A stretch of DNA of 48,103 nt from Myxococcales bacterium (lineage in GTDB: Bacteria; Myxococcota; Myxococcia; Myxococcales; Myxococcaceae), in the NCBI GenBank assembly GCA_016191815.1, contig JACPVI010000034.1:1-48103 (forward strand). The letters are read 5' to 3'. Below, one piece after another: positions 41,262-47,478 of the stretch. The position numbers were made by a program, and so were the translations under genes. A model generated the notes under the pieces. That model ran no database searches, was not told the origin of the DNA, and saw nothing but the letters and a program-made list of their open reading frames with translations. Within the stretch, counting starts at the first letter, position 1. Each line of letters starts with the position of its first letter.

Positions 41262-42668
41262 CTAGCCCACGGTGGTGATCGGCACCACCCGTCCCTCCCG
41301 GCGCTCCGAGCTGCCCGCAGGCTCGGCCGCCAGCGGCGTCAGGTACCGCCCGGAGAAGCAGGCGTTGCAGAAGCTGCCCGACTCGCCATCGCCCACCGCC
41401 TCGCCCAGGCCCTCCAGCGAGAGGTAGCCCAGGGAGTCCGCGGTGACGTAGCGGGCGATCTCCTCCACCGAGTGGGAGGAGGCGATCAGCTCCTGCCTGG
41501 AAGGGGTGTCGATGCCGTAGTAGCAGGGCCAGCGGGTGGGCGGGCTAGAGATGCGCAGGTGCACCTCCGTCGCCCCCACGCCGCGGAGCATCTTCACAAT
41601 CTTCCTCGAGGTGGTCCCCCGCACGATGGAGTCGTCCACCACCACCACCCGCTTGCCCTTCAAGACCGAGCGCACCGCCGCCAGCTTGAGCTTCACCCCG
41701 AAGTGGCGGATGGACTGCTGGGGCTCGATGAAGGTGCGCCCCACGTAGTGGCTGCGGATCAGCCCCACGTCATAGGGAATGCCCGAGACCCCCGAAAAGC
41801 CGATCGCCGCCGGCACTCCCGAGTCGGGCACCGCCACCACCAGGTCCGCCTCCGCCGGCTGCTCGCGGGCGAGCTTCTGCCCCAGGCGCTTTCGCACCTC
41901 GTACACCGAGAGCCCGAACAAGGTGGAGTCCGGCTTGGCGAAGTAGACGTGCTCGAAGACGCAGCGGCCCGCCCGGGCGGAGCGGAAGGGCCGGCTGGAG
42001 CGGAGCCCCCCCTCGTCGATCACCAGCATCTCCCCCGGCTCCACCTCGCGGATGAACTCCGCCTCGATGAGGTCCAGCGCGGTGGTCTCCGAGGCGAGCA
42101 CGTACGCGTTGCGCAGCTTCCCCAGCACCAGCGGCCTAAAGCCGTGAGGGTCCCTCACCGCGAGCAATTGCCGCTCGGTGAGGAAGAGCATGCTGTAGGC
42201 GCCCACCACCCGCGAGAGCGCCTCCACCACCTTCCGCTCGAACGACGTCTCCTTCGAGCGGGCGATGAGGTGGATCACCACCTCGGTGTCCGAGTCGGAT
42301 TGAAAGATGGCCCCCGCCCGGCCCAGCTCGTCCCTTTGCGCCTCGCCGTTCACCAGGTTGCCGTTGTGGGCCACCGAGAGCTTGCCCCCCGCGTATTCCA
42401 CCAGGAGCGGCTGCACGTTCTTGAGGTGGCTCACCCCGGCGGTGGAGTAGCGCACGTGGCCGATCGCCGTCCTTCCTGCCAGCCGCTCGAGCACCGGCGC
42501 GGTGAAGATGTCCGCCACCAGCCCCATCTGGCGCCAGGAGCGCAGCCCTTCCCCATCCGCCGAGACGATTCCCGCCGACTCCTGCCCGCGGTGCTGCAGG
42601 GCGTGCAGGCCCAGGTACGTCAGGTTGGCCGCCTCGTCGTGGCCGTGGATGCCGAACACGCCGCACAT
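41262..42668 (-). CDS. purF: Amidophosphoribosyltransferase
   Basis: PurF performs the first committed step of purine synthesis, joining the amide of glutamine to PRPP. Cys2 after removal of Met is the nucleophile (MCGVFGIHG). Later motifs are [17 protein letters not shown], and the PRPP loop [16 protein letters not shown]. Cys in [18 protein letters not shown] and [11 protein letters not shown] match the 4Fe-4S cluster positions of the Bacillus-type enzyme. Length 468 is typical. It is followed closely by glgP. Confidence 0.97.
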
Positions 42669-42856
42669 GCCGTTTGCTTTATGCCCGCTTCCTCGCGAAA
42701 GAGAAACGGCCTTGGGGCTGGCCGAAAGTCCCGATCCTGACGCGGCCGGTCATTTACTGCGGCGCGCCAAAGGAATAAACGTTGCCGCCCACTTTGGGCT
42801 GCACTCGAGGCGAGCGTCCGGGGTGATTCTCAGCAGAACAGAAAAAAGCGCCGCCC

Positions 42857-43351
42857 ATGGCTGACCCGAGGGTGGCAGAGCTGTACCGCAAGTATGGGCC
42901 CACCATCTACTCGCGGTGCCGGCGGTTGTTACGGGACGACGTGGCGGCGGAGGACGCCACCCAGGAGGTTTTCTTGCGCGTCCTGCGCCATATCGAAGCG
43001 GCTCCCCAGGAGCAGGCGGCCCTGGCGTGGATTTACCGCATCTCCACCAACTACTGCCTCAACTGGCTCCGCGACCGCTCGCGTCAGGCCGAGCCGGTGG
43101 AGGAGCTGCCGGAAGCCGTTGGAGAGCACCCCGAGCCACTGATGCTGGACCGCGACCTGGCGATGCGGCTGGTGATGAGGGCGCCCGACAAGCTGCGCGC
43201 CCCGGCGGTGCTCTACTACGTCGACGGCCTGGAGCAGGAGCAGGTGGCCAAGGCGCTCGGCGTCTCCCGGCGCACCGTGATCAACCGCCTGGGACAGTTC
43301 GCCAGCCGCGCCCGGAAGTTCATCTCCCGCGAGGAGGTGCGCCATGAATGA
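42857..43351 (+). CDS. ECF-type RNA polymerase sigma factor
   Basis: The 164-residue protein has sigma region 2 (DDVAAEDATQEVFLRVLRHIEAAP...WIYRISTNYCLNWLRDRSR) and region 4 (YVDGLEQEQVAKALGVSRRTVINRLGQFASRARKFI) joined by a short linker, the layout of group 4 sigma factors. It directs polymerase to stress or envelope promoters. It overlaps the next gene, an anti-sigma factor, by eight bases, so the two are co-made. No strong autoregulatory promoter was identified upstream. Confidence 0.94.
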   Translation: MADPRVAELYRKYGPTIYSRCRRLLRDDVAAEDATQEVFLRVLRHIEAAPQEQAALAWIYRISTNYCLNWLRDRSRQAEPVEELPEAVGEHPEPLMLDRDLAMRLVMRAPDKLRAPAVLYYVDGLEQEQVAKALGVSRRTVINRLGQFASRARKFISREEVRHE

Positions 43352-44093
43352 CCGCGGGCACCTCTCGGTGGAGACCATCGACCTCTTGGCGCTCTCCTCG
43401 CTCTCGCCCACCAAGGAGCAGGACGCCAGGGCCCACCTCTCGAGCTGCGACTCCTGCCAGGCGCGGCTCTCCGAGCTCGAGGAGGACAAAGCCCACTTCC
43501 AGCGCTTCGTCTTCCCCCGCACCGTGGCCAAGGTGGAGGAGCGGGCCCGCACCTGGGCGCTGCCCGACCGCCTGCGCGGCTACTGGAAGATGTGGATTCC
43601 GGCGCTGGGGATGGCGGCCGCGGCGGCGCTGGTGTTCGTCACCGCTCCCTCCAGCCAGACCGAGGACGAGCCCTACATCGGAGTGAAGGGAGTCAGCCTG
43701 CCCCTCTTCGAGGTGGTGGCCAGCCGGCCAGAGGGGAGCCAATTCCAGGTGAAGGACGGCACCCGGCTCAGGCCGAAGGACCGCATCCGCTTCGTGGTGG
43801 AGCCGGCGGGAGCGCGCTTCTTGCTCATCGCCTCCAAGGACGGCCAGGGGAACGTCACCGTCTACCACCCCTACGGGGGGCAACAGAGCGCTCCAGTGCA
43901 GCCCGGAAAGCGAGAGCTGCCCGGCAGCATCGAGCTGGACGAGGTGTTGGGCCGCGAACGGCTGGTGGCGGTCTTCTCCGACTCCCCCATCTCCGCCGAG
44001 CGGGTGAAGGACGAGCTGGCCCGGGCCGATTCGCCGCACCTCATTCCCGGGACCAGGGCGCTGGTGAGCCTCCTGTTCACCAAGGAGCCCTGA
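43344..44093 (+). CDS. Zinc-binding anti-sigma factor with DUF4384-like periplasmic domain
   Basis: The 249-residue protein begins with a ZAS-type motif H31-x3-C35-x2-C38 (HLSSCDSCQ) that marks zinc-binding anti-sigma domains; these hold ECF sigma inactive. A membrane segment follows at about residues 82-102 (IPALGMAAAAALVFV). The outer domain (FQVKDGTRLRPKDRIRFVVEPAGARFLLIASKDGQGNVTVYHPYGG...) looks like DUF4384, a domain that I recall as a partner of caspase-like domains. The start has GAGGAGG six bases upstream. The caspase gene follows with no gap. It may sense an envelope state and release the sigma factor. Confidence 0.9.
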   Translation: MNDRGHLSVETIDLLALSSLSPTKEQDARAHLSSCDSCQARLSELEEDKAHFQRFVFPRTVAKVEERARTWALPDRLRGYWKMWIPALGMAAAAALVFVTAPSSQTEDEPYIGVKGVSLPLFEVVASRPEGSQFQVKDGTRLRPKDRIRFVVEPAGARFLLIASKDGQGNVTVYHPYGGQQSAPVQPGKRELPGSIELDEVLGRERLVAVFSDSPISAERVKDELARADSPHLIPGTRALVSLLFTKEP

Positions 44094-45662
44094 GTGCAGA
44101 GGCGCGGACTTTCGGGCGCGGCCGGCTGGCCCGTCGCCCTCACGCTCTTGTTCTCGGCATCGCCCGCCCTCGCCGAGTCCAGGCGAATCGCGGTGGTGGC
44201 AGGCAACAACGCCGGCTCGGGCGAGCTGCCGCCCCTCCGCTACGCGGAGAACGACGCGGGGAAGATGGCGCGCGTGCTGGTAGAGCTGGGCGAGGTGGCG
44301 GAGGAGGACGTGAGGCTGCTGCAGGGCCGTGGGGTCTCCGAGCTGGAGAAGTCCTTCGCCGAGGCCAGGGAGCGGGTGGCCGCCCTCGAGCGCTCGCCCG
44401 ACACCCGGACGGTCCTCCTCTTCTACTTCTCCGGACACAGCGACGGCGAGGCGATCGAGATGGGGAGGGAGAAGCTCCCCTACGGACGGCTCAAGGCGCT
44501 CCTCGCCGGCACCGGGGCGGACGTGCGGGTGGCCATCGTGGACGCCTGCAAGAGCGGCGCGGCGGTACTGGAGAAGGGCGGGCGGCCGGCGGAGCCGTTC
44601 ACCATCAAGCTCACCGACTCCCTGGTGGCCACCGGCGAGGCCTTCATCACCTCCAGCGCGGCGGACGAGTCGGCCCTGGAGTCGGCGGAGGTGATGGGCA
44701 GCTTCTTCACCCACAACCTGGTGTCCGGGCTGCGCGGGGCGGCGGACGAGTCGGGGGACAAGCTGGTGACGCTGGCCGAGGCCTACCGCTACGCCTACGA
44801 CCGGACCGTCTCCGCCACCGCGATGATGCCGGTGGGCTCGCAGCACCCCACCTACGACTACCGCTTGTCGGGGCAGGGTGAGCTGGTGCTCTCCACGCTG
44901 CTTCGCACTTCGGCGCTCCTGGTCCTGCCCCAGGGGGCGGAGCGCGCGCTGGTGACGGATCTCTCGCGGGACCAGGTGCTGGTGGAGCTGCCGCAGTCGG
45001 CCGCCCGCGAGGTGGCGGTTGCCCCCGGCAGCTACGGAGTGCGCCTGTTCAAAGAAGGGAAATCCTTCGGGGGCCGCTACCAGGTGGGCGAGCGCTCCCG
45101 CACCGTGGTGCGCTGGGAGGAGCTGTCGCCGCTCTCCAGCTCGGTGGTGGTGGCGGCCAAGGGCGCGGAGGTGCGAAAGCCCGCGCCGGAGCCTTCCCCG
45201 CGGGCGCCGCTCTTGGCCCTGTCCTTGGGCGGAGCCCTGGGGGTGGCACAGGGATTGGGGCTCCAGGGGATGGCGCGGCTCACCTTCGAGCCGTCGTCCT
45301 CCTCCGGGCTGTCCTTCGGGCTGCTCGGGGCCACCGGGAGCTCCGCCGCCGAGGGCTTCAGCGAGAGCGGGTTGCAGCTTCGCGCCGGCTATCGCCTGGT
45401 GTGGAGTTTCGGGGCGGTGTCCCTCTCGGCCGGAGGGGAGTTGGGCTTGGCCTACGTGTGGCAGCGATTCCCCGCGGAGCCCACGAGGTCGGCGCTCTCC
45501 TTGGGTGCGGGGCCGCGAGGCACGGTGCGCGTGCAGGCTTGGGGGCCGGTGTGGCTTTCGGCGGAGGCGGACCTCCCGGTGTTCCTCTTCTCCACCGACG
45601 GGCGGCTGCAACTGGTGCCGATGCCCACCGGCAGCGTCGGCCTGGCGCTGATGCTGAGGTGA
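44094..45662 (+). CDS. Secreted caspase-like (C14) protein with C-terminal beta-barrel-like region
   Basis: The 522-residue product has a signal peptide ending ALA (residue about 27), then a caspase fold at about 30-260. The catalytic dyad is visible as His115 (FYFSGHSDG) and Cys152 (VAIVDACKSGA), with a later ITSSAADESALES. After a middle beta-rich domain, the last 150 residues are alternating amphipathic stretches (LSLGGALGVAQG, GLSFGLLGATG, LQLRAGYRLVWSFGAVSLSAGGELGLAYVW, LSAEADLPVFLF, GSVGLALMLR) like an outer-membrane barrel. GTG 44094 directly follows the anti-sigma stop. Such a layout would place a caspase in the periplasm, anchored to the outer membrane. Substrate unknown. Confidence 0.88.
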   Translation: MQRRGLSGAAGWPVALTLLFSASPALAESRRIAVVAGNNAGSGELPPLRYAENDAGKMARVLVELGEVAEEDVRLLQGRGVSELEKSFAEARERVAALERSPDTRTVLLFYFSGHSDGEAIEMGREKLPYGRLKALLAGTGADVRVAIVDACKSGAAVLEKGGRPAEPFTIKLTDSLVATGEAFITSSAADESALESAEVMGSFFTHNLVSGLRGAADESGDKLVTLAEAYRYAYDRTVSATAMMPVGSQHPTYDYRLSGQGELVLSTLLRTSALLVLPQGAERALVTDLSRDQVLVELPQSAAREVAVAPGSYGVRLFKEGKSFGGRYQVGERSRTVVRWEELSPLSSSVVVAAKGAEVRKPAPEPSPRAPLLALSLGGALGVAQGLGLQGMARLTFEPSSSSGLSFGLLGATGSSAAEGFSESGLQLRAGYRLVWSFGAVSLSAGGELGLAYVWQRFPAEPTRSALSLGAGPRGTVRVQAWGPVWLSAEADLPVFLFSTDGRLQLVPMPTGSVGLALMLR

Positions 45663-45663: not shown

Positions 45664-46650
45664 TCAGCGGCAATACCCGTCGTCTTCGCAGGTGCCTCCA
45701 GGGCATTGAAACCCCATGTTTCGGCAGTCCGCGAGGCAGAAGCCCGCACCTCCGTCGCTTCCCTTGACCGGGTAGCAGAGGTAGCCGGGCCGGCAAGAGC
45801 TCTGGCCTCCGTCTTCCGGGGTGCAGAAGGCGTGGCACAGAGGGGGATGCGGCCAACCGAGCGGGTGCCGCTCCGCGCAGATTCCGCCGTCGCCGCACAG
45901 GGACGGCTCTTCCCGGCACGGCGCCGAGCAGTGCCCGCCGGGCCAGCCGCTGAGCCCACCGTCCAGCTTCCACTCCGTCTCGCAGAAGCCGTCCGGTGGG
46001 GGGCCACGGCACAGCGAGTCGTCCATGCAGGGACCGCCCATCTGACCGGGAAGGGCGGGGCCCGCGTCCTGGAGCGGGTCGCGGGCGATCCAGCAAAGCT
46101 CCCGGCCGTAGCTCACGCCGGGGGCAATTCTGCAAGCGTACCCGGGCGTGCGACAGGGGGCGGCGTCGCTGCAACTCTGCACGCACATTTCCGAAACCCC
46201 GTCTGCTCGCCAGCAGAGGGAATCGGGCGGGCACTGCCAAGAGCCGGATCCGCAGCTGGTTGTGCAATAGCCGTCTCGGTAGAGCAGTCCGGACCATGTC
46301 CACTTCAGGCATTCGCCCCCAGGCAATTGCGAACAATCGCCATCGCTGTCGCAGGGCGCCCCCACCACGCCGATGGGCCGCACCGGATAGTCGAAGTCGT
46401 CGCATGCATCAATGCAGGCGCCACCCCAGCAGCAGGCGCTGGATTTTGGACACCCCTTGCATTGGCCGCCGTCTATGCCGCAGGCCTCCAGGCGGTCACC
46501 GGGCAGGCAGCGACCGTCCGCATCGCAGCAGCCGCGGCAGGTCTTCTCGCAGCGGGAGCAGTTGCAGTTGACCGCAGCGAACATCGGCACCACCAGCGCC
46601 GCGACGACTACCAGCCATCGAGCACGGCCCGCTTTCAACCGCAGTGGCAC
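45664..46650 (-). CDS. Cys-rich exported protein, paralogue of the 4392 gene
   Basis: The 328-residue product has a hydrophobic N-terminal segment (WLVVVAALVVPMFAAVNC) and many Cys (CEKTCRGCC, CGIDGGQCKGC). It matches the protein of 4392-5648 in its C-terminal half: PPDGFC, GWPGGHCSAPC, CGDGGIC, and CRNMGFQCPGG against CNNPGNACPQG. It lacks the poly-Gly linker. The start is not certain: GTG 46650 has GGAGGAG about ten bases upstream and gives a good signal peptide, whereas TTG 46701 would add 17 polar residues. The gene runs against the caspase gene, with its stop codon one base after it, and lies between 30-bp direct repeats. Confidence 0.85.
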   Translation of the reverse strand: MPLRLKAGRARWLVVVAALVVPMFAAVNCNCSRCEKTCRGCCDADGRCLPGDRLEACGIDGGQCKGCPKSSACCWGGACIDACDDFDYPVRPIGVVGAPCDSDGDCSQLPGGECLKWTWSGLLYRDGYCTTSCGSGSWQCPPDSLCWRADGVSEMCVQSCSDAAPCRTPGYACRIAPGVSYGRELCWIARDPLQDAGPALPGQMGGPCMDDSLCRGPPPDGFCETEWKLDGGLSGWPGGHCSAPCREEPSLCGDGGICAERHPLGWPHPPLCHAFCTPEDGGQSSCRPGYLCYPVKGSDGGAGFCLADCRNMGFQCPGGTCEDDGYCR

Positions 46651-46732
46651 CGGGAGCGACTCCTCCGCCGCAGCTTGATTCTTCTCGCCTCCGGCGAGCA
46701 AGCTGGCCCAGGCGTGAGGTGAGACCTCGCTG

Positions 46733-46762
46733 GCGTCGGCCTGGCGCTGATGCAGAGGTGAC
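46733..46762 (+). repeat. 30-bp direct repeat, copy 2
   Basis: Copy of the caspase 3' end (45634-45663) with one A-for-T change. It lies outside any gene and borders the 1.07-kb segment with the Cys-rich gene. Confidence 0.9.
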
Positions 46763-46793
46763 GGTCAGCTGGTCGACTCTCTCCGTTTGGCCT

Positions 46794-46810
46794 GCACGTA
46801 GGATACGTGC
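46794..46810. promoter_or_regulatory. Operator-like palindrome before vapBC
   Basis: GCACGTA-GGA-TACGTGC is a perfect 17-bp palindrome with a 3-base centre, 13 bases before the antitoxin ATG. VapB-type antitoxins usually repress their own operon through such sites. Confidence 0.55.
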
Positions 46811-46823
46811 TACACCACGGCCC

Positions 46824-47063
46824 ATGGCCAAGCAGAACCTGACCGTGCGGCTCGACAAGGAGATCATCCGCAAGGCGCGGATGCTGGCGGCCGAGCGAGG
46901 CAGCTCGATCAGCGAGCTCGTCTCGCGGACGATCGACGAGATGGTCTCGAAGGCCGAGTCCTACGACCGGGCTCGTGACCGGGCGCTGAGGCTACTGGAG
47001 CAAGGCTTCCATATGGGCAAGGCGAGGCGCGTCTCTCGCAGCGAGCTCCATGAGCGCCGATAA
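46824..47063 (+). CDS. vapB: Antitoxin of a VapBC-type module
   Basis: The 79-residue protein has a ribbon-helix-helix-like N-terminus (NLTVRLDKEIIRKARMLAAERGSSISELVSRTIDEMV) and a charged, probably flexible C-terminal tail (GFHMGKARRVSRSELHERR) that would wrap the toxin. The ATG at 46824 starts exactly at the domain. It overlaps the toxin gene by 14 bases. The symbol is given from operon context; the protein resembles the small RHH antitoxins paired with PIN toxins. Confidence 0.88.
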   Translation: MAKQNLTVRLDKEIIRKARMLAAERGSSISELVSRTIDEMVSKAESYDRARDRALRLLEQGFHMGKARRVSRSELHERR

Positions 47064-47478
47064 GGTCTTCGTCGACACCAACGTTCTCGTTTGCGCGCAC
47101 AACGCCGACGCCAGCTCCAAACACGAGATGGCCAAGGCGCGCATCGCCGAGCTCTGGCGCGCAGGGCTCGGCGTCATCAGCGTCCAAGTGCTTCAGGAGC
47201 TCTACGTGACGGTCACCCGGAAGATTCCGGTTCCGCTCCCCCGGAAGACCGCCCGCGAGCTCATTCGCAACTACCAGCCATGGCTCACTGCGCCTACGGA
47301 CCTCGATTTGATCTCGCGCGCCACTGAGGTCGAGGAGCTTCATCAACTGTCGTTCTGGGATGCTCTGATCGTCGCAGCGGCTCACCGGGCCGGAGCCGCG
47401 GTGCTGCTTACGGAGGACTTGAACGACGGGCAGCTCATCGAGGGCGTGAGGATAGAGAATCCGTTCCGACCGATATGA
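47050..47478 (+). CDS. vapC: PIN-domain toxin of a VapBC-type module
   Basis: VapC proteins are Mg-dependent ribonucleases that cut specific RNAs when the antitoxin is lost. The 142-residue product has the PIN acidic residues in VFVDTNVLV (Asp), SVQVLQELYV (Glu), SFWDALIVAAA (Asp) and LLTEDLND (Asp). All four positions are conserved, so it is predicted to be active. It overlaps the antitoxin by 14 bases. The module stands next to the repeat-bounded Cys-rich gene. Confidence 0.93.
   Translation: MSADKVFVDTNVLVCAHNADASSKHEMAKARIAELWRAGLGVISVQVLQELYVTVTRKIPVPLPRKTARELIRNYQPWLTAPTDLDLISRATEVEELHQLSFWDALIVAAAHRAGAAVLLTEDLNDGQLIEGVRIENPFRPI

Follow-up and report, generated by a model that had tools for sequence, protein, structure and literature searches.

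The 48,103-nucleotide window analysed here, contig JACPVI010000034.1 of a Myxococcales bacterium (contig C24 of a genome of 6.77 Mb), carries a three-gene operon that probably specifies a signalling switch working across the cell envelope. The operon encodes an extracytoplasmic function (ECF) sigma factor, an anti-sigma factor with one transmembrane (TM) helix and a secreted caspase homologue, and the caspase would act as the site-1 protease of the anti-sigma factor, cleaving itself at two bonds (sites A and B) and the anti-sigma factor at a third (site C). Comparison among related genomes and predicted folds support this reading through the conservation of the triad, the S1 residues of the caspase, the three sites, their joint change and joint loss, an upstream motif and the presence of site-2 protease (M50) genes in the genome. 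From these, we infer that the bonds are cut, that the caspase is the cutter, the order of the cuts, that the outcome is activation and not silencing, and the signal, the direction of activation and the signal being taken by analogy from known anti-sigma systems (PMC7593790).

The new element is a set of three conserved basic-Gly sites in linkers of the caspase and the anti-sigma factor (Table 1), the sigma/metacaspase neighbourhood itself being already known. Site A lies nine residues past the catalytic Cys, near the position at which effector caspases are processed, and site C lies 18 residues past the TM helix and about five before the first strand of the outer sandwich, near the end of a low-confidence linker. 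Counts were made in 91 non-redundant full-length triads, with median identities of 32% for the caspase and 26% for the anti-sigma factor. With Lys and Arg pooled, the site columns are 98-100% conserved, the median linker column standing at 0.19 (B), 0.25 (C) and 0.49 (A), and K115 and G116 are the best-conserved columns in the anti-sigma factor. Because aligners pull identical pairs together, [KR]G was also counted anywhere in the linker windows, where it occurred in 91/91 for A, B and C alike. Shuffled linkers, which leave shared ancestry in place, averaged 49.6 (A), 29.5 (B) and 29.4 (C), with maxima of 63, 43 and 41, while the reversed dipeptide G[KR] was found in 43, 17 and 7 windows, respectively. 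As a control, one of seven other zinc-motif proteins of the genome judged to be membrane-anchored has KG near its TM segment. Long caspases of about 680-830 amino acids (aa), with a much longer C-terminal part, carry Arg-Gly and not Lys-Gly at site B (L057, L061, L065, L070, L072, L147, L150, L168, L170, L172, L174 and L175).

Table 1. Features of the sigma/anti-sigma/caspase operon (positions of the window; pLDDT, predicted local distance difference test)
Feature	Position	Strand	Basis
Promoter-like element CTGCAC-N15-GGGGT	42799..42824	+	32 nt upstream of sigma ATG
ECF sigma factor, 164 aa	42857..43351	+	Pfam Sigma70_r2 and NCBIfam TIGR02937, both above cut-off
Anti-sigma factor, 249 aa: zinc-motif helical N-terminus, one TM helix, DUF4384-like outer domain	43344..44093	+	Pfam, AlphaFold
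Anti-sigma TM helix, residues 73-97	43560..43634	+	AlphaFold helix, hydrophobic
Anti-sigma juxtamembrane linker, residues 98-120	43635..43703	+	block pLDDT 45-64 (101-120); 101-110 and 112-114 <50
Site C Lys115-Gly116, proposed site-1 bond, anti-sigma factor	43686..43691	+	[KR]G 91/91; just after stretch with pLDDT <50
Anti-sigma outer domain, predicted beta sandwich with DUF4384 match	43704..44084	+	block pLDDT 89-98
Secreted caspase with predicted C-terminal outer-membrane barrel, 522 aa, GTG start	44094..45662	+	Pfam, AlphaFold, Foldseek, VIA-align
Caspase domain, residues 28-268; His115, Cys152, acidic S1 Asp54 and Asp150	44175..44897	+	VIA-align, conservation
Site A Lys161-Gly162, proposed self-processing bond, loop after Cys152	44574..44579	+	loop 155-176 pLDDT <50; [KR]G 91/91
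Small beta domain, residues 265-347	44886..45134	+	AlphaFold strands; no Pfam match
Site B Lys356-Gly357, proposed release bond, caspase-to-barrel linker	45159..45164	+	linker 350-368 pLDDT <50; [KR]G 91/91
Predicted outer-membrane beta-barrel, residues 373-520	45210..45653	+	block pLDDT 92-98, Foldseek

The sites change together in protease and presumed substrate. A search with the C73 caspase brought out a distant clade, in some members of which the caspase gene is divergent from the sigma and anti-sigma genes. In this clade (the Arg clade), site A has Arg in 31/31 caspases (Arg-Gly, or Pro-Arg-Lys in five), site B is Arg-Gly wherever it is covered, and site C has Arg in all 30 anti-sigma factors read (16 Arg-Gly, 14 Arg-Ser). 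Sites A and C are Lys in the other clades, the lone exception being L123. The Arg group forms one side of one branch with an SH-aLRT (Shimodaira-Hasegawa-like approximate likelihood ratio test) value of 98 in a tree built with the loop masked; its position beside L269 is uncertain. Two further changes fall on this branch: S1-pocket position 113, which corresponds to TbMCA2 Ser156, turns from Ser into Ala, Thr or Val, and Glu192, which does not vary in the Lys clades, disappears.

The sites are also lost together with their partners. Eight caspases that lack sigma factor, anti-sigma factor and barrel also lack sites A and B, and they form one derived clade; these are short secreted proteins of about 390-430 aa (L052, L053, L054, L056, L062, L067, L068 and L079). 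Conversely, the sigma/anti-sigma pairs L360 and L361, from two genomes, have no adjacent caspase gene, and their anti-sigma factors have neither KG nor linker, even though they are 46-47% identical to a triad member. The anti-sigma factor of L363, which ends near a contig edge, is likewise without KG.

That the three genes stay neighbours in related genomes, on which the preliminary description had staked its proposal, was confirmed. In the window, the first two genes overlap by 8 bp and the third follows with a gap of 0 bp. Profiles built in this analysis mapped 122 unique caspases. Complete triads numbered 98 (unique copies), which argues against a chance neighbourhood, and 75 of the 98 have a 4-bp overlap between sigma and anti-sigma genes. 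Of the caspase alignments, A1 held sequences too varied for a degenerate scan, and A2 worked. Caspase relatives occur in 52/60 related genomes, with up to 11 matches per genome, and the source genome holds five complete triads (the window, C4, C7, C63 and C73). The anti-sigma profile matches 152/195 Myxococcota genomes at E <= 1e-20, and the relatives are mostly named Myxococcota. In searches of the relatives made both ways, G019, G044, G049 and G050 have neither a caspase match nor a strong anti-sigma match; the two families come and go together across relatives. At L078 (G000:C4), two sigma/anti-sigma/caspase clusters stand side by side in opposite orientation, one of them with its caspase gene some 1.2 kb upstream of the sigma gene. 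The triad of L179 (BNCN01000006.1, labelled Comamonas sp. KCTC 72670) is near-identical to a myxobacterial one and groups on short branches as sister of the G022 copy, so this record probably stems from mislabelling or contamination.

The assignments of the three products made from the sequence at first sight, an ECF sigma factor, a one-TM anti-sigma factor and a secreted caspase with a His115/Cys152 dyad, were borne out by Pfam, NCBIfam and AlphaFold. The first gene product is an ECF sigma factor (group IV sigma-70, a class of about 160-190 aa with regions 2 and 4 only), scoring 62.6 bits with Sigma70_r2 and 73.3 bits with TIGR02937, with a region 4 match of 25.3 bits that falls slightly below its cut-off of 25.7. 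The anti-sigma factor, a candidate for the class I zinc group (Hx3Cx2C in a helical domain, then one TM helix), carries the zinc motif H31-x3-C35-x2-C38 in a helical N-terminal domain; the zf-HC2 profile reaches 13.9 bits, under the 22.2 cut-off, with all three motif residues, the helical domain and the TM helix present. The AlphaFold model, built from a 41-sequence alignment, has a mean pLDDT of 88.8 and predicts a beta sandwich at residues 121-247, within which residues 143-215 match DUF4384 (PF14326) at 22 bits (E 1.8e-4), below the Pfam cut-off of 27. That cut-off is passed by the C4 paralogue in the same genome (27.5) and by anti-sigma factors of other triads (up to 43), which makes the family relationship secure and marks the window copy as divergent. 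With that qualification, the proposal that a DUF4384 part is split from the caspase and resides in the anti-sigma factor is supported. Weak Ig-like matches of the outer sandwich (Z about 8) were set aside, as they may reflect merely a common arrangement. In the family anti-sigma factors at L260, L265, L363, L364, L057, L061, L065, L070 and L072, the zinc-motif Cys residues are gone, and sigma binding there must therefore do without the zinc site.

The third product passes the C14 profile PF00656 with 49.7 bits against a cut-off of 21.4, and its N-terminus is hydrophobic and signal-peptide-like. AlphaFold, again with a 41-sequence alignment, gave a mean pLDDT of 87.1. In VIA-align, residues 26-268 superpose on procaspase-7 with Z 19.8 over 201 residues (root-mean-square deviation 2.8); Foldseek matches the protease part to the yeast metacaspase Yca1, and a sequence search of the PDB returned only metacaspase-4 (E 0.03). 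Among the unique caspases, His115/Cys152 and Asp150 are conserved in 122/122 and Asp54 in 120/122. Going by where the catalytic Cys sits and by an alignment with metacaspase-4, Asp54 and Asp150 appear equivalent to TbMCA2 Asp95 and Asp211, which are metacaspase S1 pocket residues (PMC4357240), so the protein has the predicted acidic S1 pocket of C14B metacaspases and orthocaspases. As these enzymes prefer Lys or Arg at P1 (PMC4357240, PMC5756287), a Lys/Arg-Gly specificity is proposed. The EACC1-associated caspase profile (NF047832) scores 69.1 bits against a cut-off of 140, which places the protein outside that family, and a search of a plasmid collection gave three weak matches, to other caspases only. 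The barrel-like C-terminus, whose failure in structure prediction would have undone the original proposal, holds in the AlphaFold model, where it is confirmed as an eight-strand meander barrel of the OmpA/NspA/OmpX class; Foldseek matches it to NspA (E 4.9e-6, TMt 0.68), OmpA, OmpX, Ail and OmpW. With an even number of strands and the N-terminus inside, the protease domain would face the periplasm.

In the proposed mechanism, the anti-sigma factor would tether the ECF sigma factor to the inner membrane. The caspase would be exported and would sit in the outer membrane through its barrel, with its protease domain in the periplasm. Barrel loops, the small beta domain or barrel assembly are candidate triggers. 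The zymogen would cleave its interdomain loop after Lys161 and its barrel linker after Lys356, which would free the protease from the outer membrane. The freed caspase would cut the anti-sigma factor after Lys115, just outside the inner membrane, trimming away the outer DUF4384-like domain; a site-2 protease and then cytoplasmic proteases would finish the anti-sigma factor and release the sigma factor. The suggestion that a periplasmic caspase cleaves the anti-sigma factor is supported and narrowed to the predicted K115-G116 bond. The fuller version, in which an outer-membrane-anchored caspase zymogen activates and frees itself to become a cysteine-type site-1 protease, with several parallel paralogous channels in each genome and a motif that co-changes in protease and substrate, we regard as evenly poised between right and wrong.

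The freed sigma factor would finally drive transcription of its operon through the conserved element in front of it. The motif YTGCAC-N15-SGGKT is found upstream at constant spacing in 18 of the 22 closest triads, against a shuffled expectation of 0.02, which fits a sigma factor that autoregulates its operon. Genome-wide, the motif is not enriched, with 34 sites versus 36 for the reversed control; support therefore reaches no further than autoregulation, and a regulon defined by this motif was dropped. A TMEM43-like gene preceded by a site at a distance of 47 nt was rejected as well, the sole orthologue found (G009) being without the site.

Several observations weigh against this mechanism. 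The excess of site A over shuffles is the weakest of the three because its loop is rich in Arg and Gly, and about a dozen caspases that have no anti-sigma gene beside them keep site A, which self-processing alone could thus explain. The Lys/Arg switch lies on a single branch and thus counts as a single concerted event rather than several; 14 members of the Arg clade have Arg-Ser, not Arg-Gly, at site C, and L123 switched A and B to Arg but left C as Lys. The anti-sigma factors of L260, L261 and L265 keep KG with no adjacent caspase gene found on the available sequence (the L260 locus is cut by contig ends), where other caspases in these genomes could act in trans. An outer-membrane-tethered caspase may also be unable to get to a bond close to the inner membrane before B has been cut.

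Three other explanations were weighed. It is unlikely that the sigma factor merely induces the caspase as an effector, which would process itself at A and B and act on other envelope or extracellular targets, with the anti-sigma factor switched otherwise and its KG serving for spacing or docking. Self-processing alone could account for sites A and B, barrel caspases without a neighbouring anti-sigma gene retain both, and the operon, which has a sigma-type promoter motif, ends with the caspase gene; however, this leaves unexplained the same dipeptide in the anti-sigma factor, its P1 change to Arg alongside the caspase sites, and the loss of KG and linker where the caspase gene is missing. Less probable still is a separate trypsin- or gingipain-like periplasmic protease that cuts all basic-Gly sites, the caspase being its activated substrate and both proteins coming under one control. 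The data give shared motifs and not the identity of the protease, but metacaspases and orthocaspases themselves favour Lys/Arg at P1 (PMC4357240, PMC5756287), the acidic S1 residues of this caspase are conserved, and its S1-pocket positions change on the same branch as P1. Very improbable is a purely structural KG that starts the DUF4384 sandwich, since despite its place about five residues ahead of the first strand and its retention in three anti-sigma factors without a caspase neighbour, the DUF4384 anti-sigma factors L360 and L361 (and L363, at a contig edge) manage without it, in the first two cases without the linker too, and a structural residue is not expected to become Arg together with two sites in another protein.

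Caspase cleavage of the anti-sigma factor thus remains the preferred reading, and parts of it have counterparts in known systems. According to Asplund-Samuelsson et al. (2012, PMC3501461), four of the five Myxococcus xanthus metacaspases are encoded in operons together with sigma factors, and the same layout is given for Anaeromyxobacter, Haliangium, Sorangium, Ralstonia and Fibrobacter; the sigma-70/metacaspase operons of Myxococcus, Anaeromyxobacter, Haliangium and Sorangium are very probably the same operons as the triads described here. A word search of its text found no mention of an anti-sigma factor, and its passage on these operons describes neither a barrel nor cleavage sites nor a mechanism. 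The open-licence PubMed Central literature yielded no report of a caspase that cuts a membrane-bound anti-sigma factor. A role in envelope stress, as first suggested, is plausible from the outer-membrane anchor. The sigma/metacaspase linkage is not new, having been reported in 2012 (PMC3501461); a death-type pathway was set aside, as nothing found pointed to a death role. Craspase, the type III-E CASP system (Csx29 - Csx30 - CASP-sigma; PMC10028731), likewise has a caspase-fold protease that cuts the inhibitor of an ECF sigma factor, and CASP-sigma is thought to autoregulate its locus (PMC10028731). Craspase is a cytoplasmic, RNA-activated TPR-CHAT protease with Cas7-11, whereas a secreted C14 protease on an outer-membrane barrel would act here on a membrane anti-sigma factor; the three window proteins have no CHAT or TPR match in Pfam and therefore fall outside the type III-E CASP definition (Cas genes were not searched for). 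The DegS/RseP - RseA - sigma-E route of regulated intramembrane proteolysis (PMC7593790) shares a one-TM anti-sigma factor, a juxtamembrane site-1 cut and a subsequent site-2 cut with our proposal. The site-1 proteases described there (DegS, DegP, SipS, SipT and Prc) are serine peptidases, so a cysteine caspase would be a new class. In FecAR/FoxAR cell-surface signalling (PMC11637429), an outer-membrane barrel protein also signals to an inner-membrane anti-sigma factor, but here there is no TonB-dependent receptor and the eight-strand barrel carries the protease itself. Animal caspase-3 and -7 resemble the window protein in fold and in an interdomain processing site shortly past the catalytic Cys, and differ from it in that a basic, not acidic, P1 is expected here, along with a periplasmic location and a barrel tether.

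Around the operon, the upstream neighbour, an opposite-strand gene starting at 42668, reads from its translation like an amidophosphoribosyltransferase, leaving 188 bp for a promoter. Directly adjoining the caspase gene, a convergent gene (45664-46701, minus strand) encodes a Cys-rich, probably secreted protein. Two overlapping open reading frames (ORFs) at 46644-47478 on the plus strand read, from translation only, as a ribbon-helix-helix antitoxin and a PIN-domain VapC-type toxin, the MAKQNLTVRLDKE start of the ribbon-helix-helix ORF sitting within the first ORF.

To our knowledge, few natural substrates of bacterial caspase homologues have been identified. For a family spread across Myxococcota, a substrate, its exact bond and two self-processing bonds are now predicted. 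If the proposal is correct, caspases would gain a role in signalling across the envelope, a cysteine protease would join the site-1 proteases of sigma-factor control, and, considered alongside Craspase, the cutting of a sigma-factor inhibitor by a caspase-fold protease would have arisen in more than one setting.

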